The notes under the pieces were generated by a model. It did no database searches. It saw only the letters and a program-made list of their open reading frames with translations, and was not told where the DNA came from. This document shows, in pieces, positions 2,209 to 13,567 of a stretch of 37,382 nt of DNA. Within the stretch, counting starts at the first letter, position 1, and each line of letters begins with the position of its first letter. The DNA lies in assembly GCA_026388655.1 (NCBI GenBank), contig JAPLJI010000176.1, positions 1 to 37,382 on the forward strand. Reading direction: 5' to 3'. This DNA comes from Pseudomonadota bacterium. Lineage in GTDB: Bacteria > Desulfobacterota > JAPLJL01. A program made the translations under genes and the position numbers.

Positions 2209-2418
2209 CTACAAGGTGGTCACGCCAAAGGCGGTCTTCTTCACCCGGCGGCTCTGGGAGTCGTATACATACTGCCCTACTGAATTTCCTTCAACTTTTA
2301 TTTCTTTTAATCGATTATTCACGTCATAAATAAGCGACGTGTTATCCCAGCCCACAATATTTCCATTACCGTCGTAGGCGTAGGTCGTCCCTTCCCGTAT
2401 CGCCGAGGCGATCTTGAT
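2209..2418 (-). pseudogene. Rhs core remnant (truncated cassette start)
   Basis: Translated on the minus strand this gives IKIASAIREGTTYAYDGNGN, a YD-repeat segment, then SQSRRVKKTAFGVTTL and a TAG stop at 2211-2209. It is closely similar to the start of the cassette at 5932 (KIKIAEAMREGTTYAYDGNG, AQSRRVKKTAFNVTTYFIYD). The remnant breaks off just where the intact cassettes continue with the FIYDQF segment, so it is the first 70 codons of a fourth cassette whose core, C-terminal domain and partner are gone. It begins directly after the TGA of the preceding small gene and in the same frame. It has no start codon or ribosome binding site of its own and is probably not translated. Confidence 0.8.
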
Positions 2419-2919
2419 TCACAAATCTTCGATTTTTTCTCTTTCCCATTTATCGATTTTCCAATCTGAACCTTCTTTTATTAAATAAAACCTTATTCGG
2501 GTTTTTTCCTTAAAACCTTCTCCTTCACCTATTGATTCCACAACTGCAATTATCACATTTTCTCCATTTTCTTGAACTTTTTTTATTTTCTGATCATACC
2601 AATGGGTTTCACTGGTTAACCTATAATCTTTGTAAACCTTTGCATTTGTTATCGATATATCCTTACCGGTATTCATATCAGTAACAGTATAAGACTTTAA
2701 TCTTTCTTTAAAATTACTTGAAAGTAATGCGTAGCATTCATCATACTCAACCTTTTCTTCATAATACAAGTATTTTTCAAGAACTTTAGTAGCAATTATT
2801 ATTTCATTTCCACCATTTTCTTTTGTTTTGGCTTTACCATACTGAAGGTTTTTGTTATAGTTACAACATACAACAAATATTATCATTATTACTGAAAGAA
2901 ACGAATTTATTTTCAGCAC
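2419..2919 (-). CDS. Exported NTF2-like small protein, candidate immunity protein of cassette 1
   Basis: 166 aa. The N-terminus (MLKINSFLSVIMIIFVVCCN) is a short basic start plus hydrophobic segment, hence a signal peptide or membrane anchor. Two cysteines end it, but the residues before them do not match a classic lipobox, so a lipoprotein is possible but not certain. The rest (KVLEKYLYYEEKVEYDECYA ... RIRFYLIKEGSDWKIDKWE) has the look of NTF2-like/DUF4878-type exported proteins. A GTG start at 2919 is preceded by GTAGGAG at good spacing, 14 bases after the stop of the Rhs cassette with the peptidase-like end. By analogy with Rhs loci it is likely the immunity partner. An extracytoplasmic location fits a toxin acting on peptidoglycan. 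The role is inferred. Confidence 0.6.
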   Translation of the reverse strand: MLKINSFLSVIMIIFVVCCNYNKNLQYGKAKTKENGGNEIIIATKVLEKYLYYEEKVEYDECYALLSSNFKERLKSYTVTDMNTGKDISITNAKVYKDYRLTSETHWYDQKIKKVQENGENVIIAVVESIGEGEGFKEKTRIRFYLIKEGSDWKIDKWEREKIEDL

Positions 2920-2933
2920 TTTGTTTGCTCCTA

Positions 2934-4145
2934 CTATTTACAAGATTTAACTTCTTTTTTTTCTTCATTCTTTTTACTTTCACCTTCTTTCCGCCATTCT
3001 GGTTCATCCTGAAGTGTTTGACCATTACGTCCGTTCCATTCAGAATCTCTGGTATCTACATGAGTATGGCCTTTATGTTGTTGATCATAAGTGCTTACAC
3101 CATTAAATCCAACCTGCGAAGCCAATTCGGCAGTTTGCTCAGAAGACCATCCAGGAATATAAATATCTGCAGCCTTTCCACCATTGGTTGTGAGATGATA
3201 GCTTCCTGATGCACCCCCAACATCTTCATTCTGTTGAGGTGTCCTATCACCACCAGTTACAATTACATCTCGACTTCCATTCAAAGTATCCAATTCGGTT
3301 AATTTCTGCCTTGTCGTCGAATCAGTAATATTATGATTGCCATAGACAACCTCTAAACCTAAATAATCCCAATGACGTATAGGATTGTTATCAGAGTACA
3401 AATAACTGACTGTACTATACCCAATTGTTACAAGAGGATCTTGAGAAAGATATCTTCCAATTTTAGGACTATAGTATCTATTGATACTGTAATGCAACCC
3501 AGTCTCAGCGTCATAGTACTGCCCAGGGAATCTCAGGTTCTGAGAAATAGTGTTTGGCTCCATGGTCAAAGGCTCTTCCCCAAAGGGACCGTACTGCCAT
3601 GACCAGACCACGTTTTGATTCTGATCCGTCAGCTTGATGGGAGTACCCAAATGATCATTATGATAATAATAGACCACCTCGCCAGTTGTTTGCGCTTGAA
3701 GGCGAGAAGGCTGGAAAGCTAGAAGGCTAATAATAAAAGCCGACCCTAAAAATCCAATTAAAAGAATAAAAGACTTTTTAGAACTTCGGGTAAATTTAAA
3801 AAAGATGACAAAAAGGAAAGGCGATAAAATAAATACATACCCTAAAATCCCTTCCTTCGGGTTCCAGGCGAAGATCGTTCCGCAGCTCCCGCTGACTTGG
3901 CCTGAAATTGTAGGAGGCGGAGCGGAAGAAGGCAACGGCAAATCAATCAGTGCCAGAGCCTGGCCGTTCAGGTAAATATATTCCTTCGTTATATTTCCGC
4001 TTGCATCAGACTCCGCGATTAAATTGCTGAACTGGTCATAGATGGAATAGGTGGTCACGCCGTAGGCAGTTTTCTTCACACGGCGGCCGGAAGCATCATA
4101 AGTATATTCACCCACGGGCTGGCCGTTGACCAACGCCTTCGTCAT
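2934..4145 (-). CDS. Orphan Rhs cassette 1: Rhs core plus M15 peptidase-like C-terminal domain
   Basis: 403 aa. Residues 1-70 are a YD-repeat start nearly identical to cassette 3. Two hydrophobic segments lie at about 100-117 and 125-143. The Rhs-associated core runs about 157-264 (DHLGTP at 165-170, RFPGQYYDAETGLHY, GRYLSQDP) and closes with PIRHWDYLGL (255-264), the PxxxxDPxGL-type boundary of Rhs toxins. The variable end (265-403) resembles zinc D,D-/L,D-carboxypeptidases of the M15/VanY type: TGGDRTPQQN (R301), SYHLTTNGGKAADI (H317, D327) and HKGHTHVDTR (H362), the expected Arg and His/Asp/His ligands. A peptidoglycan-cleaving toxin is therefore likely. There is no convincing ribosome binding site before the ATG at 4145, so it may be a silent cassette that is expressed after recombination with the main gene. 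Confidence 0.8.
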   Translation of the reverse strand: MTKALVNGQPVGEYTYDASGRRVKKTAYGVTTYSIYDQFSNLIAESDASGNITKEYIYLNGQALALIDLPLPSSAPPPTISGQVSGSCGTIFAWNPKEGILGYVFILSPFLFVIFFKFTRSSKKSFILLIGFLGSAFIISLLAFQPSRLQAQTTGEVVYYYHNDHLGTPIKLTDQNQNVVWSWQYGPFGEEPLTMEPNTISQNLRFPGQYYDAETGLHYSINRYYSPKIGRYLSQDPLVTIGYSTVSYLYSDNNPIRHWDYLGLEVVYGNHNITDSTTRQKLTELDTLNGSRDVIVTGGDRTPQQNEDVGGASGSYHLTTNGGKAADIYIPGWSSEQTAELASQVGFNGVSTYDQQHKGHTHVDTRDSEWNGRNGQTLQDEPEWRKEGESKKNEEKKEVKSCK

Positions 4146-4146
4146 C

Positions 4147-4162
4147 CGATTCTGTGAATCGT
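4147..4162. repeat. Inverted repeat at cassette 1 boundary
   Basis: CGATTC-TGT-GAATCG lies immediately before the ATG of cassette 1. The same sequence with one more paired base occurs at 7825-7841 before cassette 3. Similarity between the two cassettes begins at this palindrome and the sequences upstream differ, so it marks a recombination boundary or hotspot. Confidence 0.55.
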
Positions 4163-4163
4163 C

Positions 4164-4260
4164 GCCTCCGGAGAGTGTTAAAAGTTGCTAAATTATCCCA
4201 GCCAATTATAAGCAAGGAATTTTACAATCTTTTAGAATAAAAAATCGAAAATGAAATGTT
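4164..4260. other. Spacer between cassette 1 and the preceding small gene
   Basis: About 100 AT-rich bases. The part near 4164-4200 still encodes a short piece (LLTLSGG) similar to the sequence upstream of cassette 2 (LLTLSGDN), so it is Rhs-derived. A TAG stop interrupts it. No promoter is evident. Confidence 0.4.
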
Positions 4261-4602
4261 TTAATTGAAATGATTTCCAAAAAATGAATTAAGTAGCATC
4301 ATAACATAAAAAGTTATACTTATAAATAAAATTACGATAAATATTGAGATTAAAATTCTTTTGAAAGAAAACTTTTTCTCAGATATTTTACTTCCCAATT
4401 TCTTATTAGTTAGAAAATTACCAATCATTTCAAATAGTAAGAATATTGGTATTCCAATAAAAATTAATACTAACCATCCTATAAAATCTTTAGGAATGTG
4501 AGGATATAAATATAAAATAATAAATAGTAAATAAATAAAAATGAATATAGTAATTCCAATTAAAAGTCTTTTAATCCGTTCTTTTAATGACCCTTTTATC
4601 AT
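4261..4602 (-). CDS. Small integral membrane protein, candidate immunity protein of cassette 2
   Basis: 113 aa from the ATG at 4602; a longer reading from 4647 would overlap the cassette 2 gene. It has a basic start (MIKGSLKERIKRLL) and three strongly hydrophobic segments (around LIGITIFIFIYLLFIILYLY, WLVLIFIGIPIFLLFEMIG and ILISIFIVILFISITFYVMM), so it should sit in the inner membrane. I do not recognise a family. It starts four bases after the TGA of the cassette 2 gene, which suggests translational coupling. Its base composition is far more AT-rich than the flanking genome, a sign of recent acquisition. An integral membrane immunity protein would fit a membrane-active toxin, but this is inference. 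Confidence 0.6.
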   Translation of the reverse strand: MIKGSLKERIKRLLIGITIFIFIYLLFIILYLYPHIPKDFIGWLVLIFIGIPIFLLFEMIGNFLTNKKLGSKISEKKFSFKRILISIFIVILFISITFYVMMLLNSFFGNHFN

Positions 4603-4606
4603 TTTT

Positions 4607-5932
4607 TCAATCGCATGATTTTTGTTCACAAGGTGTAATTGCAGCATTAATTAATGAACCTGCTGCCGCTCCTGCTTCCCATGCAGTACCCATTAAAGCG
4701 AAATTCACAACCCAAGTTCCCCCCGCAACAATTCCTGTTTCCAAACCGGTAAATGTTGCACCACCCATAGAAACACCCTGAAAACCACCTGCCGCCCACT
4801 GCCCAAGAGTAACACTCCCTAAAGCAGAAGAAACATACCCTGATGAATATAAACCTAATCCTGCCGGAGCCAATAATCCTGGAACTGCACTATTTGTAGT
4901 CTTGAAATTTTCCCAAACACGTTGCCAATAAGATTTTTCACACATCAATCCTAATCGATCTATCCAAATAATAGGATTGTTTAAAGCATATCCATATAAA
5001 TCAACGTCTGCTCCTTCGACAATTAAAGGATCAATTTTACATTTTAAAGATAATAAAATAGAATATAAATTCAGCATTTTAATCGGATCCGGGGTGAGAT
5101 ACCTCCCCAGTTTGGGGCTGTAATAGCGGTGGAAATTATAATACAACCCGGTTTCAGCGTCGTAATATTGACCGGGGAATCTTAGATTTTGTGAAATGGT
5201 ATTGGATTCCATCCATGGCGATTCTTCTCCAAACGGCCCATACTGCCACCGCCACACGATATTGATATCGGCGTCGGTCATAACCAAAGGAGTACCAAGA
5301 TGATCCAAATGGAAATAATAGATCTTCTCAGCGCTTTCTTGAGCTCGGACGCTTTCCTCGGTGAAAATAAACGCTGAGCCGAGCACCAGGCACCAGAGCA
5401 CCACGGCACCAGAAAAGGCCAAATAATTCTTTCTCCGGTAAGAGCGGATCAAAATCAAGCCAAAGAAAGGCGATAAAATAAAGAAGAAAAGAATGGCTTG
5501 ATCGCGGGTGGCCCGGCCGAAACCGATAGTTGAACACATCCCGCTGACTTGCTGAGAAATCGTCTGGGGCGGGGCGGAAGAAGGCAAAGGCAGATTAATC
5601 AGAGCCAGTGGCTTGCCATTCATGTAAATATATTCCCTGGTGATATTTCCACTCGCATCAGATTCCGCGATCAAATTGTTGAATTGGTCATAGATGAAGT
5701 AGGTAGTCACGTTAAAGGCGGTCTTTTTCACCCTGCGGCTTTGGGCGTCGTATGAATAAGAAGCAATTTGCAGGGTGCCATCTTCAGGCAAAGGGGAAGT
5801 AACCCCAACAAGACGATTTTGGAAGTCGTATTTGTAATGGATATCATCGGCCGCGATGATGTTCCCATTCCCGTCGTAGGCGTAGGTCGTCCCTTCTCTC
5901 ATCGCCTCGGCGATCTTGATCTTCATCGCCAA
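4607..5932 (-). CDS. Orphan Rhs cassette 2: Rhs core plus Gly/Ala-rich hydrophobic C-terminal domain
   Basis: 441 aa from a TTG at 5932 (ATG alternative at 5926). The open frame actually extends up to a TAG at 6043, reading LLTLSGDNLASFVTKDELGQ, so no real start is evident and the cassette looks like a promoterless fragment. YD repeats occupy 15-85. Hydrophobic segments are at about 146-163 and 171-190, followed by ESVRAQ. The core contains DHLGTP (210-215) and RFPGQYYDAETGLYY, and ends in PIIWIDRLGL (320-329). The last 112 residues (from MCEKSYWQRVWENF) are a Gly/Ala/Ser-rich hydrophobic region ending CEQKSCD. They resemble membrane-inserting or pore-forming domains in composition only. No enzyme motif is visible. 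Its neighbour is a membrane protein, consistent with a toxin/immunity pair. Confidence 0.75.
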   Translation of the reverse strand: MAMKIKIAEAMREGTTYAYDGNGNIIAADDIHYKYDFQNRLVGVTSPLPEDGTLQIASYSYDAQSRRVKKTAFNVTTYFIYDQFNNLIAESDASGNITREYIYMNGKPLALINLPLPSSAPPQTISQQVSGMCSTIGFGRATRDQAILFFFILSPFFGLILIRSYRRKNYLAFSGAVVLWCLVLGSAFIFTEESVRAQESAEKIYYFHLDHLGTPLVMTDADINIVWRWQYGPFGEESPWMESNTISQNLRFPGQYYDAETGLYYNFHRYYSPKLGRYLTPDPIKMLNLYSILLSLKCKIDPLIVEGADVDLYGYALNNPIIWIDRLGLMCEKSYWQRVWENFKTTNSAVPGLLAPAGLGLYSSGYVSSALGSVTLGQWAAGGFQGVSMGGATFTGLETGIVAGGTWVVNFALMGTAWEAGAAAGSLINAAITPCEQKSCD

Positions 5933-6046
5933 TTTTATGAACTGCTTGACCTGCCCCAGCTCATCTTTAGTTACAAAAGAAGCCAGATTATCCCCGGAGA
6001 GGGTTAAAAGCTCCCGTACTATCCCGGCCAGGCTTTCTCGCTATTA

Positions 6047-6625
6047 TCAATCAAGGATGAAATCGACCGATATGACGCGAGGCACGGCTTCATGAGAAAG
6101 GTGAACACCACAAGCATAGTTGCCAAGATTTGGGGTGTTAAAATACAAATCCGTAGGATGTTGCTCGGCGATCTGGAACTCAGACATGATAGCCCGCACT
6201 TCGTTAATGGTTTGTCCCTTCTTTATCGTCTGACACTTGCCGTATAGATACTTTAGCTCATGCGAATCAGAGAAGAAAACGTGTACAGGAGGATAAAAGA
6301 CTTCTAGGTCTATTATCCCAAGTAACACGTGCGGAGAGACTCCAACGACGTAGAAAATAAGTGACAGGCCAAGAAGCCAACCCTCCCAACCTGGCTTGAG
6401 TTTCAATCTCATTCGAAGAAGAAAAACGATGAAGCTCACGCCGGCGAGAAACAGTATGGAGTCTAAGACTATGATAAATATGACAGAGGATCGGGTCACC
6501 TTCGAGAACGGCATGGAGTAATAATGATCGACCCCTACCAAGATGAGAGACGCGAGCACGAACATCGCAATCGCGATCTTGATCACCAAAGGAAGATGTA
6601 TTGGCGTCGATGCCTTGGCCTGCAC
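6047..6625 (-). CDS. Membrane protein with C-terminal soluble domain, candidate immunity protein of cassette 3
   Basis: 192 aa from the GTG at 6625, chosen because GGAGG lies six bases upstream. An upstream in-frame ATG at 6676 would overlap the cassette 3 gene and lacks such a site. It has three hydrophobic segments (around VIKIAIAMFVLASLILVGVD, VIFIIVLDSILFLAGVSFIV and WLLGLSLIFYVVGVSPHVLL) and a roughly 80-residue end containing KCQTIKKGQTINEVRAIMSE, with no recognised family. It begins 22 bases after the stop of cassette 3. Position and topology suggest the immunity partner of the cassette 3 C-terminal domain. The evidence is contextual only. Confidence 0.6.
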   Translation of the reverse strand: MQAKASTPIHLPLVIKIAIAMFVLASLILVGVDHYYSMPFSKVTRSSVIFIIVLDSILFLAGVSFIVFLLRMRLKLKPGWEGWLLGLSLIFYVVGVSPHVLLGIIDLEVFYPPVHVFFSDSHELKYLYGKCQTIKKGQTINEVRAIMSEFQIAEQHPTDLYFNTPNLGNYACGVHLSHEAVPRVISVDFILD

Positions 6626-6647
6626 TGTTAGCCTCCGCCCGAATGCA

Positions 6648-7823
6648 TTAGAAGAAGTACATGAATACCGGACCATAGGCTTGAATGGTATTTAGCATCG
6701 TTTGTCCCGGATTCCGAGTGGTCTGGCCTTCGCTACAAGTCTTCGCGTTCGCGTTCGGATTGATATCGTATTGCGGCAACACATCATTTCCACGAATCCT
6801 ATATGGCGACGAGTTGTAATCAAAGTCGTCTATCGACCCGCCCTTTGGATTCACAAAGTCAACATCCGTGATCTCTTGTCCATCGACGTACACAGGATTC
6901 TCCCAGTTAACCGTCTGCCCTGGTTGAATCCAAAACGTGATTTGCTGATTACCGGACCCTCTTCCAGGACCAGGGTTACCAGAACCCTGCACCGGATATG
7001 GCATATTGTTGGTCACGCTTGCCAGGCCAAGTGGATCCTTCGATTTCACCGGATTGTTCACGGCGTAGGAGTAAGTATTAAAAGGTTGTGGATATCTACT
7101 ATATCTTTTTATAGGATCCGGGGTTAAATACCTCCCCAGTTTCGTGCTGTAGTAGCGATTCATGTTGTAATGCAACCCGGTTTCTGCATCGTAGTACTGT
7201 CCGGGGAAACGAAGATTCTGTGAAATAGCGTTAGGCTCCATCGTCAAAGGTTCCTCGCCAAAGGGCCCGTATTGCCAACTCCAGACCACGTTTTGATTCT
7301 GATCCGTCAGCTTGATTGGAGTGCCGAGGTGATCCACATGATAATAATATATTTCTTCGCCCGTGGTCTGTGCTCGGACGCTGGGAGGCTGGGACGCTAG
7401 GAAGCTAAACACAATAAAAACTCCCAGGCAGCCGAGTAAAATTAAAAATGACTTCTTCGTACTTCTAGTAACTCGGAAGAAAATGGCAAATAAGAAAGGA
7501 GAAAGAATAAAAGCGTAACCAATAATCCCTTCCTGCGGGTTCCAAGCGAAGATCGTCCCGCAGCTCCCGCTGACCTGCTGGGAAATGGTCTGAGGCGGAG
7601 CGGTGGATGGCAAAGGAAGACTAATAAACGCCAAAGGTTTTCCATTTAAATAAATATATTCCCTAGTAATATTGCCAGAAGCGTCAGCTTCCGCGATCAA
7701 ATTGCTGAACTGGTCATAGATGGAATAGGTGGTCACGCCGTAGGCAGTTTTCTTCACACGGCGGCCGGAAGCATCATAAGTATATTCACCCACGGGCTGG
7801 CCGTTGACCAACGCCTTCGTCAT
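6648..7823 (-). CDS. Rhs cassette 3: Rhs core plus unrecognised C-terminal domain (next to main Rhs gene)
   Basis: 391 aa. Residues 1-95 are almost identical to cassette 1. The hydrophobic pair is at about 100-117 and 124-142 and is followed by SVRAQ. DHLGTP is at 164-169, RFPGQYYDAETGLHY and GRYLTPDPI follow, and the boundary is PVKSKDPLGL (258-267), a perfect PxxxxDPxGL motif. The last 124 residues start ASVTNNMPYPVQGSGNPGPG, contain FWIQPGQTVNWENPVYVDG and end AYGPVFMYFF. I do not recognise the fold and see no nuclease or protease motif. The ATG overlaps the stop of the main Rhs gene as ATGA, so translational coupling is possible. It supplies the Rhs-core end that the main gene lacks, so the two may be one gene split by a frame shift or recombination. 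Confidence 0.8.
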   Translation of the reverse strand: MTKALVNGQPVGEYTYDASGRRVKKTAYGVTTYSIYDQFSNLIAEADASGNITREYIYLNGKPLAFISLPLPSTAPPQTISQQVSGSCGTIFAWNPQEGIIGYAFILSPFLFAIFFRVTRSTKKSFLILLGCLGVFIVFSFLASQPPSVRAQTTGEEIYYYHVDHLGTPIKLTDQNQNVVWSWQYGPFGEEPLTMEPNAISQNLRFPGQYYDAETGLHYNMNRYYSTKLGRYLTPDPIKRYSRYPQPFNTYSYAVNNPVKSKDPLGLASVTNNMPYPVQGSGNPGPGRGSGNQQITFWIQPGQTVNWENPVYVDGQEITDVDFVNPKGGSIDDFDYNSSPYRIRGNDVLPQYDINPNANAKTCSEGQTTRNPGQTMLNTIQAYGPVFMYFF

Positions 7824-10800
7824 CCGATTCTGTGAATCGGCACTTTGCCAACAAACTCACCGGCGGTGACCTGAGGAGGGGGCGGGGGAGGGGGACACGG
7901 TTTTCCATGTTCAGGCTTATAGAAACGCCCAGACGGGAGCCTGCAGAGAGGCTCCCCTACATTTGAAGACCCAGACTTAAAAGAGGGAGAAGAAAGCTTA
8001 AGGGCATAAAGTTTGATCTCGATCAGCATTTTGAGATATTTGAGCTGAATCAGAATATCTTCGGGAATCTTATGATGCCATTTGTGGCAGAAGCCATCAA
8101 CCCGATCATGAATATCCGTCCAACCATTTTCATCCAGATCTTCGAAATTATCGGGGACGCTAGGAACGACTCCGACGATTCGTTGCCAATCGGTGGGAAC
8201 CCGCTCACCCTCACCCCTGCCCTCTCCCCTCAAGGGAGAGGGATAAACCCCTGGATTCCCGCTTCCGCGGGAATGACGACCAGGATGGGGAGAGGGAGTA
8301 TTTTTGAAAGAGGGAAAAGAAGGGGAGAAAGCAGGGCTAAAGCCCTGCCCTACATTTTTATGTAAACCAGAAGAACCAGACGAGCCGGGAGAACCACCGG
8401 AATTTGCCGGAGGATCTAAAACCTCTCGGAGGCGGTTGGTGCCGTCGTAGTAGCTGTAGTCGTAGTTCTTGCCGTCGTCTACTTCGGAGATCCGGTTGCC
8501 GGCCAAGTCATAACCAAAATCCAGATCCCCAAGATAAGTACCATCCGCGGAAATCAAGCGATTTAAGGGATCATAACCAAACTGATCGGTTTGCGCAGTA
8601 TTCCCTTGATTCAAATCTTCAAAGGAATCGTATTGATCAAAACCGATAATATTATCCACCGGATCATAACTATAGAATCGTGCCGCCGTTACCTGGGCCA
8701 ACTCTTCACCAGCAAAGGCCCCCACCACAAAAAACCAGGGGTTATAACGGGCGTTGAACCACATCACATATTCCAATCCATTCCCATAAACAAAATGCGT
8801 GGCCTTTCCGGAAAGAAGATTGCCGTCATAGGTAAAATTACTGGCTAAGGTAGTGGAACTGCCATTTAAAGTGGCGTTTACCCCCGAAACCAAACCCGAG
8901 TCATACTGATAATTCACCACCCGGCCGGAGGGGTAGGTAATCGAGCTTACGTTGCCGTTGGCGTCATAAGAATAGCTAAGGGCAAAGGGCAAAGAGCCAA
9001 GGGTCTTATTTTCGTGGGCCAGATTGCCGCGCTGGTCATACGCGTAGCTGGAGGAACCGGATTCATCGGTAACCGTGGAAAGGCGGCCGAGGCCATTAAC
9101 ACCTTGATCGTAGGCGTAGGTCACATCAACGCTGGAAGGCTGGGAAGCTGGAAGGCTGGAAAGCTCAACCAAACGATTAAGAACATCATATGAATAGGTT
9201 GTTTCCTGGCTGTTGGCGTCGAATTTGGCGATCAGATTTCCGGCTTCGTCATATTGGAAGCGGGCTAAACCGGAATCGGGGGAATTGATCTGAACCAATC
9301 TGCCCATGTCGTCATATGAGTAATTAGTCAGGAGTGAGGAGTCGGGAGCGCGGTATGAAGTGACAGAAATGAGATTGTCGTGAGAATCGTACTGGTAAAA
9401 CGCTAGAACGCTGGAAGGCTGGGACGCCGGGACGCCAGAAACCTGAACGAGACGATTTAAAGCATCGTATTCATATGTATTTGCATTACCATTATCATCG
9501 GTAACTGAGGTCCGGTTGCCGTTGGGATCGTAGGCAAATTGGGTATAAGTACCCCAATCGTTATTATAAATACGAAACAAGCGATTATTTTCATCGAAAT
9601 CACGGTCATTAATTCCATCAAGTATCTGATTGCCAAACCAATCATAATCATATTCCACCCACTGGGTTCCGTGGGCGATCCCGAGCAAATGATGGGTATC
9701 ATCCTCATACTGATAATCAATAGTTTCGCCGTTAGGCTGGGTTACCCGTTTGATCGAGCCCAAACCATCCAGGGCATATTGAGTAACCAGGTCGTCTTCT
9801 CCCGAAGGCCCTGCTTCTTTCTGGGTGCTTGAAATCAAGCGGCCCCGGAAATCATATCCGTTCAGAGTCACCCGCCCGTTCGGGTCGGTGATTTTGGTGG
9901 GATTGCCGAAAAGTTTGTAATCATCATATCGGGTAATCCCGCCGGTGGGATCGGCCACGGTTTTCAAACGACCCCGGTTATACCCCTGATCGGGAGAATC
10001 CGAGTAATAAGCAAAGCTGGTGACGTCGGCGACATCCGTCCGGGGGCCGTCAATCGAGACCAACCTCTTGACGCCCGTTCCCATCGACGCATTGGAAGCC
10101 ACGTCCACCCGCCCTTCGGCCGGATCAACATAAGTCAACGGACCGAATTTGCCGTCGCCCACGCCGGGGAAATATTCAATCCCATAATACGATGCCGAGG
10201 CGACGATATCCAAAGCACCGTCGCCGTTAAAATCCATTGTCGCGCCATATCCAATCCCATAATCGCCGGAGGACCCTTCACTATAAGGGTTGGTATCATA
10301 ACCGTATTCGTAACTCCAAGGATCCGCGCAACTAAGACCGATTAAATTAAAATTACCGTTACCATCTCCTAAAAATAAATAAGATTGACCAGCATCATTA
10401 TCGTGAGTCTGGCCGGCCAGCACATCCGTATTGCCATCCCCGTTAAAATCACCCGCGATTACAGCCACGATTTCATGATATCCTCCAAAAGCCGGGCAAC
10501 CGGGTATGCCGGCGCATGAATAAGTGGGGAAATTACCCGCGCCGTCACCGAACATAACGCAAAAAAACCCGCCATAATAACCCAACACCAGATCCAGATA
10601 TTCATCATTATTAAAATAGCCCGATTTTAATTGGGTTGGGACATAACTGGGATTAGGGGGCGAGAAAAATCCCTTCTCTAAGAACTGGATTTCACCGTTT
10701 ATCACACCCAGATTCTCCAGAATGACGATCTGCGGACCGAAAGCGGAGGTCTTAATGGCTATATCCGGAAGATGATTCGGGTCATTGATAAAATCTCCGA

Positions 10801-13561
10801 AATCCCCGGCCGCACCCGTGGCTCCCCAATAATAATCGTTGCTCATAGAAAAACCGGAGGCGATAATCTTCGTAGTAAAATTCAGATTTCCATCGTTTTG
10901 AAGAAGATAAACCTCACTTGTCCCCGTAAGCGCGATATCGAAATTTCCATCCTGGTTATAATCCGCCACCATAGGATAAGGAATCGGGATTCCAAGATTA
11001 GCTACCCATAGTTTGCTGCCGAAGTTTCCGTCGAGCAAATACGGTATCAACCATATGTCACCGTTCAAATCGGATAAAACAATGTTATTCGATTGAAGGT
11101 TTGTCTCACTGCTTTCATAGAAATAACGCGTAACGTAAGTGTAATGGTCGATTTGTCCGGAAGAATTATAAGTAAAACCCTTTTCGATCATTTTGTGGAG
11201 ATAATTTGTCGGCGTCTGATTAAAATCGGTCGGATTGTCGGTTGGATAAGGATCAACAGCCGAGGAGGGGTCGTCATAATCGTAAATGGTGATCTTCTTC
11301 GTTCCGGAAAGACCGAGAACGCTATCCTTAATTATGTAAAGCGGGGTATTCAAAACCGGGTGATAGGCAGAAAAGGTTTCATGACCCAGGGCGTCAATAA
11401 TTTTTCCAGGATTCCCACGGTCATCATAATCCTGGTAATGTGTCTCGTTGCCGTTTTTATCGGTAAATTTTGTCCGATTGAGATTGTTTTCTGAAGAATC
11501 CCATTCGGAGGCACTGCTCCCGCCGCAGCCGCAATCCCCTTCTATCCAAGTCGAAACTCCATACTCGTTATAGTGAACTTTATAAGGCTCTTTTCCTCCT
11601 ACATCCTGAACATAAGCTTGAATTTGTGTATATTGCGACTCCGGATAATAATTAAATCGTAATATTTCCCACCCTCTGCGTAAGCTCTCAACTCTATCCA
11701 AACTATCATAACCTATACTTTGGTAACTCAAAATACTCCCTGAAGAATCTTCTTCGGAAATTCCGGTCAGATTGTGAATATCACCGTAGTAATCATCATA
11801 GAAATAATTAATAAAAGAATTGTCGGGATATGCCACATGTATTAGATTATTCGCTTCATCATACTGGTAAGTGACCAAAACTTCATCGTCAGGTCCAACA
11901 ATCTCGGATATTTTTCCGTTTAAATAGCTCAATTGCACTGCAATATTACCTGACCTTATTTTTGAAATTTGACTTTCCGAGTTATAATCAAATTCCAGGA
12001 TTCCTCCCGCCGGGTTCGTAATTTTATTTAATTTTCCCAAGTCATTGAAAAAATATATCTGCCCATCCGGATTTATCAGACTCCATTCTGTTTGAATTCG
12101 GTTTAGTTTATAATTTAAACCTCTCGGAGGAAAATACCCGCCTTGACCATCGGGGGTGAAATAAAGTCCCTTGCCTCCGCCAAGCAATACTTTAATACTT
12201 TCGTCAGGGAGATTAATTAAAAAAATGTTGTAGCTATATGTCCAGCCGAATCCGATTGGACCATCATAAATCTTTTGGGAATTATAAAACCTGGAGAAAT
12301 TTATATCCATCAAGTCACTCTTAATAAAGAAATCCTGCAATGGATGTGTATAATAATTTCCTGTAACAATATTTACAGGATCTTCTCCTTGGCCTATTCC
12401 ACAGTCTTTTATGTTTTGGTCCTGTTGATCATCCGTATCATTGCAGCCTTCATCAATAAAATTGTTACAATTGTCATCAACTCCATTACATGCTTCGGTA
12501 ATATTTATGTCGTCAACAATGCCATTACAATTATCATCCACATTATTGCATAATTCGGGCAGGGGCGTCTGCTCGCCTTCGCATGGATCATACTCTCGAC
12601 AAACATTCTTCGTTCCACCATGGCATATTCCAGTATTTTCAGTGCCAGAAGGACCATCATAACAATTAACAAGATCTATAATCCCATCGCAGTTATTATC
12701 AATACCATCACATTGTTCCGCAGCCCCAGGATGTGCACTTGAATTGTAATCATTACAATCACCTTCACATGGGGACCATCCATCGCAATCATAATCATAG
12801 GTATTGCTGCCGCAACCATCCGCGTAAAATACGTAATTATCAGTGTAACAATGATAATTACCAAATACTTCACCGTCAGCCAAGCTTAAACTAAAATTGA
12901 ATTCATCCCATTTTTCTTCCCCATTGGAATCATGATATTTTGTTTTAATAACGAATTCCAACGTAGCACTGCCTCCCGTTGCCTGCACGGTAGGGATAAA
13001 GAAAGGTAGATAATAGTTGCCATATCCCGGTGAATACCATCTGAGAAAAGAACCACCCTCACCCGGCTCCAGCAAATGATCGGATAATTCCGAGTAAGGA
13101 TCATAAAACCAAATACGATAATATGCTGGCTTAAAATGTATTGAATAAATCCATACGCTTCCTAAACTAGAAGGAGAGTTCGTGATTGAAACATAATGAG
13201 ATCCATCTTCTGAATACAATGGATTACACGAACAAATCGAACTACTATTTAACATTACATCTTTAACGTTCATATTAAAATCACTTCCAGCCTGGACAAG
13301 CTCGGAACCTGCCTCGACTAATTTCGTCTGCACGGGACCGGATGCCAAACTCTCGGCAAACAAATGAGAAGAGAAAAAAACATAAATGAGAAACAAGCAC
13401 CCTAATCCGCCGAATACTCTTCGGACAGAGCGAGCAATGAATAAAAAACCGCTGGAAGGTAAAATATTTCGATCTGCAGCAAATGAATGCCCCATCAGAA
13501 GAGATTTTCTGATGAAAGAAGACCTAAAAGGGCTTTTCCAAAAAGCTTTTTCCGGTTTCAT
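7820..13561 (-). CDS. Main Rhs-family protein with MopE-like, FG-GAP/VCBS and YD repeats
   Basis: About 1,913 aa from the ATG at 13561 (AAGGGGG five bases upstream; a GTG lies at 13567). The order is: a long basic N-terminus, a signal/anchor helix near 50-70 (VFGGLGCLFLIYVFFSSHLF), and Cys/Asp-rich MopE-like repeats at about 256-382 (DNNCDGIID, DDNCNGIVD, DDNCNNFID). An Rhs N-terminal domain at about 400-560 follows (NIVTGNYYTHPLQDFF, RFYNSQKIYDGPIGFGWTYS), then YD repeats to about 820. An FG-GAP/VCBS block lies at about 826-1156 (DYNQDGNFDIAL, DFNGDGNTDVLAG, DFNGDGALDIVAS), then YD repeats again to about 1711. The tail (about 1720-1915) includes translated genomic repeats, a calcium-binding-like DLDENGWTDIHD and a proline run. 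There is no Rhs-core end in frame; the next gene supplies it. Likely a large secreted shell protein delivering a C-terminal toxin, or a surface polysaccharide-binding protein. Confidence 0.85.
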   Translation of the reverse strand: MKPEKAFWKSPFRSSFIRKSLLMGHSFAADRNILPSSGFLFIARSVRRVFGGLGCLFLIYVFFSSHLFAESLASGPVQTKLVEAGSELVQAGSDFNMNVKDVMLNSSSICSCNPLYSEDGSHYVSITNSPSSLGSVWIYSIHFKPAYYRIWFYDPYSELSDHLLEPGEGGSFLRWYSPGYGNYYLPFFIPTVQATGGSATLEFVIKTKYHDSNGEEKWDEFNFSLSLADGEVFGNYHCYTDNYVFYADGCGSNTYDYDCDGWSPCEGDCNDYNSSAHPGAAEQCDGIDNNCDGIIDLVNCYDGPSGTENTGICHGGTKNVCREYDPCEGEQTPLPELCNNVDDNCNGIVDDINITEACNGVDDNCNNFIDEGCNDTDDQQDQNIKDCGIGQGEDPVNIVTGNYYTHPLQDFFIKSDLMDINFSRFYNSQKIYDGPIGFGWTYSYNIFLINLPDESIKVLLGGGKGLYFTPDGQGGYFPPRGLNYKLNRIQTEWSLINPDGQIYFFNDLGKLNKITNPAGGILEFDYNSESQISKIRSGNIAVQLSYLNGKISEIVGPDDEVLVTYQYDEANNLIHVAYPDNSFINYFYDDYYGDIHNLTGISEEDSSGSILSYQSIGYDSLDRVESLRRGWEILRFNYYPESQYTQIQAYVQDVGGKEPYKVHYNEYGVSTWIEGDCGCGGSSASEWDSSENNLNRTKFTDKNGNETHYQDYDDRGNPGKIIDALGHETFSAYHPVLNTPLYIIKDSVLGLSGTKKITIYDYDDPSSAVDPYPTDNPTDFNQTPTNYLHKMIEKGFTYNSSGQIDHYTYVTRYFYESSETNLQSNNIVLSDLNGDIWLIPYLLDGNFGSKLWVANLGIPIPYPMVADYNQDGNFDIALTGTSEVYLLQNDGNLNFTTKIIASGFSMSNDYYWGATGAAGDFGDFINDPNHLPDIAIKTSAFGPQIVILENLGVINGEIQFLEKGFFSPPNPSYVPTQLKSGYFNNDEYLDLVLGYYGGFFCVMFGDGAGNFPTYSCAGIPGCPAFGGYHEIVAVIAGDFNGDGNTDVLAGQTHDNDAGQSYLFLGDGNGNFNLIGLSCADPWSYEYGYDTNPYSEGSSGDYGIGYGATMDFNGDGALDIVASASYYGIEYFPGVGDGKFGPLTYVDPAEGRVDVASNASMGTGVKRLVSIDGPRTDVADVTSFAYYSDSPDQGYNRGRLKTVADPTGGITRYDDYKLFGNPTKITDPNGRVTLNGYDFRGRLISSTQKEAGPSGEDDLVTQYALDGLGSIKRVTQPNGETIDYQYEDDTHHLLGIAHGTQWVEYDYDWFGNQILDGINDRDFDENNRLFRIYNNDWGTYTQFAYDPNGNRTSVTDDNGNANTYEYDALNRLVQVSGVPASQPSSVLAFYQYDSHDNLISVTSYRAPDSSLLTNYSYDDMGRLVQINSPDSGLARFQYDEAGNLIAKFDANSQETTYSYDVLNRLVELSSLPASQPSSVDVTYAYDQGVNGLGRLSTVTDESGSSSYAYDQRGNLAHENKTLGSLPFALSYSYDANGNVSSITYPSGRVVNYQYDSGLVSGVNATLNGSSTTLASNFTYDGNLLSGKATHFVYGNGLEYVMWFNARYNPWFFVVGAFAGEELAQVTAARFYSYDPVDNIIGFDQYDSFEDLNQGNTAQTDQFGYDPLNRLISADGTYLGDLDFGYDLAGNRISEVDDGKNYDYSYYDGTNRLREVLDPPANSGGSPGSSGSSGLHKNVGQGFSPAFSPSFPSFKNTPSPHPGRHSRGSGNPGVYPSPLRGEGRGEGERVPTDWQRIVGVVPSVPDNFEDLDENGWTDIHDRVDGFCHKWHHKIPEDILIQLKYLKMLIEIKLYALKLSSPSFKSGSSNVGEPLCRLPSGRFYKPEHGKPCPPPPPPPQVTAGEFVGKVPIHRIG
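7825..7841. repeat. Inverted repeat at main Rhs / cassette 3 junction
   Basis: CCGATTC-TGT-GAATCGG, a perfect 7-bp inverted repeat directly beside the ATGA overlap. Sequence shared with cassette 1 starts here, and the main gene reads the shared bases in another frame (HRIG then stop, instead of SQNRMTKAL). Confidence 0.6.
7935..7960. repeat. Palindromic GGGAGCC...GGCTCCC(CTAC) repeat inside main Rhs gene
   Basis: gggagcc and ggctccc arms flank a short loop, ending in ctac. The same palindrome type occurs between genes at 17397-17422. Here it is translated as part of NVGEPLCRLPSG in the Rhs tail. Confidence 0.7.
8203..8242. repeat. CCTCACCC / CCCTCTCCCCTCAAGGGAGAGGG palindromic repeat inside main Rhs gene
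   Basis: The hairpin ccctctcccctc-aagggagaggg preceded by ctcaccctcacccc is of the same class as 1773-2033. It is read in frame as PLRGEGRGEGERV. Confidence 0.7.
8251..8277. repeat. Palindromic GATTCCCGC-GCGGGAAT repeat inside main Rhs gene
   Basis: A 27-base unit starting ctggattcccgc and ending gcgggaatgac. It is identical base for base with the intergenic copy at 17466-17492 and related to 13784-13811. It is translated in frame as RHSRGSGNPGV. Confidence 0.85.
8331..8354. repeat. GCAGGGCTAAAGCCCTGC palindrome inside main Rhs gene
   Basis: A perfect inverted repeat gcagggct-aa-agccctgc followed by cctaca. It is translated in frame as NVGQGFSPA. It is one of four different palindromes stacked in the Rhs C-terminal tail. 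Confidence 0.75.
9131..9165. repeat. GCTGGAAGGCTGG low-complexity repeat within YD repeats
   Basis: A tandem-like gctggaaggctgggaagctgg stretch. Related stretches lie at 9402-9438, 7378-7405 and 3697-3730, all in Rhs genes. In the main gene both copies are read in the same frame and give (V/L)PASQPSSV. Confidence 0.6.
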
Positions 13562-13567
13562 CCCCAC

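Follow-up and report, generated by a model that had tools for sequence, protein, structure and literature searches.

M15 peptidases directed against rival bacteria have been published as effectors of the type VI secretion system (T6SS), namely Tpe14 of A. baumannii, a VgrG-linked M15 protein of Neisseria and WHIX-M15 (PMC6833914, PMC10210955, PMC12135965), and VanY-like toxins with a Cystatin-like carrier and a membrane-anchored (BamE-like) immunity protein were reported in eLife in 2025 (PMC12419801). For Rhs proteins, the searched text of a polymorphic toxin survey from 2012 names L,D-peptidase and NlpC/P60 tips and no M15 tip; in that same text the NTF2-type immunities are paired with a nuclease and with a JAB peptidase, and Imm65 is the sole lipoprotein immunity of the set (PMC3482391). 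In Salmonella, orphan Rhs tips become active by recombination (PMC3967940). A report of an M15 tip on a Rhs protein was not found in the searchable literature. Here we describe a Rhs locus in a window of 37,382 nucleotides (the whole stretch of DNA that was analyzed), in which one Rhs tail ends in an M15-type domain and is followed by a small gene with an export-type N-terminus. We consider it likely that the domain is an M15_3 zinc peptidase serving as a C-terminal Rhs toxin and that the downstream gene encodes its exported cognate immunity protein.

An M15 domain at the end of a Rhs tail

The tail and its neighbor, referred to as cassette 1, consist of the following features.

2934..4145, minus strand: Rhs tail ORF of cassette 1, 403 aa, with the last YD repeats, a TM hairpin, the RHS motif, the core end and the M15 tip (PF03527, TIGR03696)
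3714..3848, minus strand: TM segments predicted at residues 100-118 and at 126-144, an insertion ahead of the RHS motif in the core
2937..3353, minus strand: putative toxin tip, residues 265-403, Peptidase_M15_3 by PF08291 and by fold (profile match 3054-3317)
3243..3245, minus strand: codon of R301, aligned with R138 of 1LBU
3195..3197, minus strand: codon of H317, predicted zinc ligand, aligned with H154 of 1LBU
3165..3167, minus strand: codon of D327, predicted zinc ligand, aligned with D161 of 1LBU
3060..3068, minus strand: codons of H360-T361-H362; H362 is a predicted zinc ligand aligned with H197 of 1LBU, and H360 is aligned with H195
2928..2933, minus strand: TAGGAG ribosome-binding site of the downstream immunity candidate
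2419..2919, minus strand: immunity candidate of cassette 1, 166 aa, with a GTG start, an export signal and a Cys-Cys lipobox-like site

Residues 1-264 of the 403-aa ORF are the end of a Rhs shell, comprising an RHS repeat, the RHS motif and Rhs_assc_core. The RHS profile PF03527 matched the ORF at 3.8e-13 and TIGR03696 (Rhs_assc_core) matched residues 185-264 at 3.6e-19, with the tip beginning immediately behind at residue 265, so that the core end lies directly before a variable C-terminal domain as in Rhs polymorphic toxin cassettes. A full-length Rhs shell and an export signal are absent from this protein, which as assembled is a 403-aa tail only; the preliminary description was silent on this point, that cassette 1 as assembled is a displaced tail lacking a delivery part of its own. 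The ORF starts at an ATG without a good ribosome site nearby, a GGAGG lying about 20 nt upstream. As a separate observation on the shell, a two-helix TM hairpin was present between the last YD repeat and the RHS motif in every checked Rhs tail of the genus (cassettes 1, 2 and 3 of the window, and L118/L119), which is an unusual position for membrane segments in a Rhs shell.

The tip had been proposed to be M15-like from its residue pattern. PF08291 (Peptidase_M15_3) matched it with 44.7 bits (E = 1.7e-11; gathering cut-off 23.2), and the PHROG endolysin profile phrog_894 matched with E = 4.9e-13. The four residues on which the proposal was based were confirmed in both coordinate and identity, their contexts in the translation being GGDRTPQ (R301), GSYHLTT (H317), KAADIYI (D327) and GHTHVDT (H362), and all four were invariant across 39 relatives; together with the two profile matches, this lies well beyond chance. 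In the 40-row alignment of the tip with these 39 viral and phage-contig relatives, 11 columns were invariant (R, N, G, G, A, S, H, A, D, H and D), and the tip kept every one of them. A search of PDB sequences returned a single chain with E <0.01, 1LBU, the zinc DD-carboxypeptidase of S. albus, and the alignment paired its R138, H154, D161, H195 and H197 with R301, H317, D327, H360 and H362 of the tip, respectively. We take H154, D161 and H197 to be the known zinc ligands of 1LBU.

Structure prediction of residues 265-403, which had been put forward as a check against the M15 peptidases, yielded an AlphaFold model with pLDDT 86.2 and pTM 0.78 whose best Foldseek match was again 1LBU (9e-5). The superposition of the model on 1LBU covered 108 aligned residues with Z 12.1 and rmsd 3.0, and the further structural matches were Hedgehog domains (Z 9.7), LysECD7 (7.8) and ChiX (7.4), placing the model in the M15/Hedgehog fold. 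The profile match, the residue conservation, the predicted fold and the alignment with 1LBU strongly support the assignment of the tip to M15, and the tip looks like an active M15_3 zinc peptidase. Because the tip has the HxxHxH pattern of 1LBU, its middle His (tip position 96) being replaced by Phe in the phage relatives, it may lean toward a DD-carboxypeptidase/endopeptidase rather than the phage L-Ala-D-Glu type, although we hold this with low confidence. In the mechanism that we propose, the tip, once outside the producer, would cleave the stem peptides of a neighboring cell's peptidoglycan, most likely as a D-Ala-D-Ala carboxypeptidase or endopeptidase.

Displaced Rhs tails and an exact 141-bp repeat

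The host MAG is 3.56 Mb in size, in 194 contigs, and 94% complete, the window being contig C88; the analysis covered three genomes of the host class, all from one genus of a poorly sampled lineage. Upstream and downstream of cassette 1 the locus continues as a head-to-tail array of three Rhs tails in all, each with a different tip and partner, plus a fourth core remnant.

2212..2418, minus strand: fourth Rhs core remnant, adjoining the stop codon of the M15 partner gene without a gap
4261..4647, minus strand: immunity candidate of cassette 2, 128 aa, 3 predicted TM segments
4607..5932, minus strand: cassette 2, Rhs tail with a glycine-rich hydrophobic tip
6047..6676, minus strand: immunity candidate of cassette 3, 209 aa, several predicted TM segments
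6648..7823, minus strand: cassette 3, Rhs tail with a tip without an assigned fold
7820..13567, minus strand: main Rhs-like ORF, 1915 aa, with a Sec-like N-terminus, MopE motifs, FG-GAP and 11 RHS repeat stretches; out-of-frame end before cassette 3
4021..4161, no strand assigned: exact 141-bp repeat, identical to 7699-7839
7699..7839, no strand assigned: other copy of the exact repeat of 141 bp, located where the main Rhs ORF ends out of frame

Cassettes 2 and 3 have the core in common with cassette 1 and not the tips, and core repeats and core remnants sit between the cassettes. The GC content of cassette 1 was 0.287 in the immunity gene, 0.398 in the tip and 0.438 in the core, while the immunity gene of cassette 2 was at 0.21, the cores at 0.44-0.47 and the flank outside the Rhs locus at 0.57; an AT-rich immunity gene together with a tip of lower GC than its core is as expected for imported cassettes. 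By analogy with Salmonella, the locus looks like a typical case of displaced tips and orphan cassettes. Other features of the array include an IS-type transposase with an rve integrase core at 724-1917, which adjoins the last Rhs remnant, and the repeat-like inserts HSRGSGNPG and SPLRGEGRGEG at 7820-8100 of the main Rhs ORF, shortly upstream of its out-of-frame end. In cassette 2 (4261-5932), the glycine-rich hydrophobic tip and the three-TM partner suggest a membrane-active toxin.

The arrangement has to be read with some caution at the 141-bp block. Cassettes 1 and 3 share about 76% identity in their core DNA apart from the exact block, and the left flanks of its two copies diverge at one and the same position. 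The counterpart of the repeat stretch in the same-genus genome G002 runs on with residues that are missing at both places in the window, and the main ORF goes out of frame at the block. The block is either a recent recombination copy or a segment on which contigs were misjoined; 141 is the largest default k-mer of MEGAHIT, a common assembler. Since the repeat and the out-of-frame main ORF may mark a misjoin, the orphan status of the M15 tail is not certain, and a full-length Rhs gene may in fact end in this tail. In our proposal, cassette 1 as assembled is one of several displaced tails lined up after a full-length Rhs gene of Sec type. It would be either a tip in storage, available for recombination with the main gene, or the genuine end of a gene that the assembler misjoined.

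With an ORF that lacks the Rhs shell and an ATG that lacks a good ribosome site nearby, cassette 1 may not be expressed as it stands. The core remnants and the transposase around it, together with these two features, would also suit a silent remnant: the displaced tail would not be produced, and the cassette would be kept for immunity against relatives using the same tip, or would not yet have been lost. We regard this explanation as rather unlikely, as decay would not favor an open frame with every invariant catalytic position intact, the immunity gene retains a good ribosome site, and an assembly error at the 141-bp repeat may account for the lack of an upstream part.

The downstream gene and the partners of related Rhs tips

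As the preliminary description had it, a small gene follows the tip by 14 bases with a strong ribosome binding site: its GTG start lies 14 nt past the TAG stop of the tail ORF, and the TAGGAG precedes the GTG by 8 nt. The gene (2419-2919, minus strand) has 166 codons, and the encoded protein begins with a 19-residue hydrophobic segment, VLKINSFLSVIMIIFVVCC (mean hydropathy 2.42), and continues as a soluble domain of about 145 residues. Compared with the lipobox consensus [LVI][ASTVI][GAS]C, the sequence V-V-C-C-N is a partial fit, as the Cys at -1 is off the consensus Gly/Ala/Ser. Of the earlier suggestion that this is an exported NTF2-like protein, the export-type N-terminus was borne out, while for the fold no family reached its cut-off, the best Pfam trace being DUF3828 at 14-16 bits (cut-off 26) over the last 21 residues only. 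The phrase FYLIKEGSDWKIDKWE resembles what we take to be the end of NTF2-like lipoproteins, and an NTF2-like fold is possible but unproven. The single-sequence AlphaFold model of the protein was poor (pLDDT 54.6), with no match at Z >= 5. IseA, which in Bacillus inhibits the DL-endopeptidases of the cell wall, left a very faint trace at 13.1 bits against a cut-off of 29.9, and this is not relied on here.

Relatives of the protein were not found in GTDB contigs, plasmids, 395 genomes of the phylum or viral contigs, and members of DUF3828 and DUF4878 in the phylum were too few or none for a profile comparison. The single weak match among the 395 phylum genomes (L008) fell in a frame without a likely gene and was rejected. 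The gene qualifies as a candidate immunity gene by its position only, directly downstream of the tip.

The Rhs genes of G002 are homologous to those of the window (61% and 50% identity over the shell end). In G002, one full-length Rhs gene and one displaced tail end in Tlde1 (L,D-peptidase; PF10908, 38.4 and 45.5 bits, cut-off 30.1). One of the Tlde1 partners is a 236-aa protein with a signal-peptide-like N-terminal hydrophobic segment ending in VNDLFA and the other is a membrane protein, and a third Rhs of G002 pairs a glycine-rich tip with a membrane partner. Taken over the host and G002, export or TM segments occur in every one of the six partner candidates, and known cell-wall peptidase families account for three of the six tips, which gives independent support to an M15 tip that acts in the envelope. 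The partners are not all of one family, P0002 and the 236-aa protein of G002 being unrelated by BLASTP. Two further observations concern these loci: L119 of G002 (4119-12705) carries two different Tlde1 tips in tandem, and the soluble parts of the proteins at 6047-6676 of the window and 5085-5795 of L119 show, by eye and without profile support, a BamE-like 'KKGQTINEVRAIMSEF' or 'NKNTFKDVMEKFG' pattern.

On the strength of its position, its ribosome site, its N-terminus and the genus-wide partner pattern, the downstream protein is probably the cognate immunity protein of the M15 tip. After export it would stay anchored in the envelope of the producing cell and there inhibit the peptidase by binding it. 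That the neighbor is instead an unrelated lipoprotein gene, with the tip neutralized otherwise or not at all, would agree with the lack of a homologue linking the two and of a family assigning a function; we judge this distinctly improbable given that the gene follows the tip by 14 nt within one AT-rich island and directly precedes the next Rhs remnant, which is the partner position in the other cassettes. It is most improbable that the tip is an M15/Hedgehog fold without cell-wall activity, such as a zinc-binding ligand domain or an enzyme on another substrate: Hedgehog domains are the second-best structural group and position 96 departs from the Phe of the phage M15_3 enzymes, but the HxxHxH there is the 1LBU pattern, all invariant columns are kept, the nearest sequence relatives are phage endolysins and the genus carries Tlde1 cell-wall enzymes as sister tips.

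Delivery and comparison with known systems

The T6SS sheath protein TssC (PF05943) had no match in the host genome (94% complete), the E. coli control being positive, and delivery of the host Rhs proteins by a T6SS, which was dropped for this reason, is unlikely. In the phylum, PF08291 matched in 110 of 395 genomes; no Rhs core stood beside it in the 13 inspected cases with the most Rhs-like or otherwise doubtful frames, and no second Rhs-M15 pair was found in the 395 genomes, where frames were judged mainly by length. None of the plasmid Rhs genes spans core and tip together.

The M15_3 domain would add a cell-wall peptidase of the M15 family to the tips known on Rhs proteins, and its partner may represent a new family of immunity proteins that block peptidases, possibly as its first member. 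With the sister Tlde1 tips, one Rhs lineage working in the envelope and not in the cytoplasm is suggested. More tentatively, and with considerable doubt, the class may hold a Sec-exported, non-T6SS Rhs lineage with a TM hairpin in the shell and exchangeable tips that mostly attack the envelope (M15_3, two Tlde1 and hydrophobic), whose partners would guard the periplasm or membrane and of which the M15 partner would be the first member of a new immunity family. As a matter of speculation, a natural M15 inhibitor would be of interest for the VanY/VanX-type resistance enzymes, which have the same fold. The pairing of an M15 Rhs tip with an NTF2-like immunity had been thought new; the exact pair is plausibly so, while M15/VanY-like interbacterial toxins and membrane-anchored or lipoprotein immunities are already published (PMC6833914, PMC10210955, PMC12135965, PMC12419801).

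Among characterized enzymes, the zinc DD-carboxypeptidase of S. albus (1LBU, M15A) shares with the tip its fold and the R/H/D/H/HxH positions at about 29% identity, but it is a free secreted enzyme with a peptidoglycan-binding domain and not a toxin tip. The phage M15_3 endolysins (K1-5 type, Agrobacterium phage Atu_ph02) are closest in sequence (35-41% identity) and have the same invariant residues; they differ in being lysis genes without an immunity partner and in having Phe for the tip's His before the last zinc-binding His-x-Val-Asp. The T6SS M15 effectors resemble cassette 1 in directing an M15 domain against rival bacteria and in having linked immunity genes, whereas their carriers are LysM, VgrG or WHIX and their delivery is by T6SS, in contrast to the Rhs carrier of the window tip and a genome without a TssC match. 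The VanY-like toxins likewise differ in their carrier, which is Cystatin-like rather than Rhs (PMC12419801). In the orphan rhs-CT/rhsI modules of Salmonella, a displaced tail and immunity gene lie behind the main rhs gene with shared core DNA, as in the window; the toxin there is a different one and the main gene is intact, whereas the main gene of the window ends out of frame in the assembly (PMC3967940). Finally, Tlde1/Tldi1 and the Rhs-borne Tox-LD-peptidase (PMC3482391) are like cassette 1 in their peptidoglycan peptidase tips, their carriage on Rhs and their exported or membrane partners; the Tlde1 tips have a cysteine L,D-peptidase fold unrelated to M15, and they are present on the homologous Rhs genes of the same genus.
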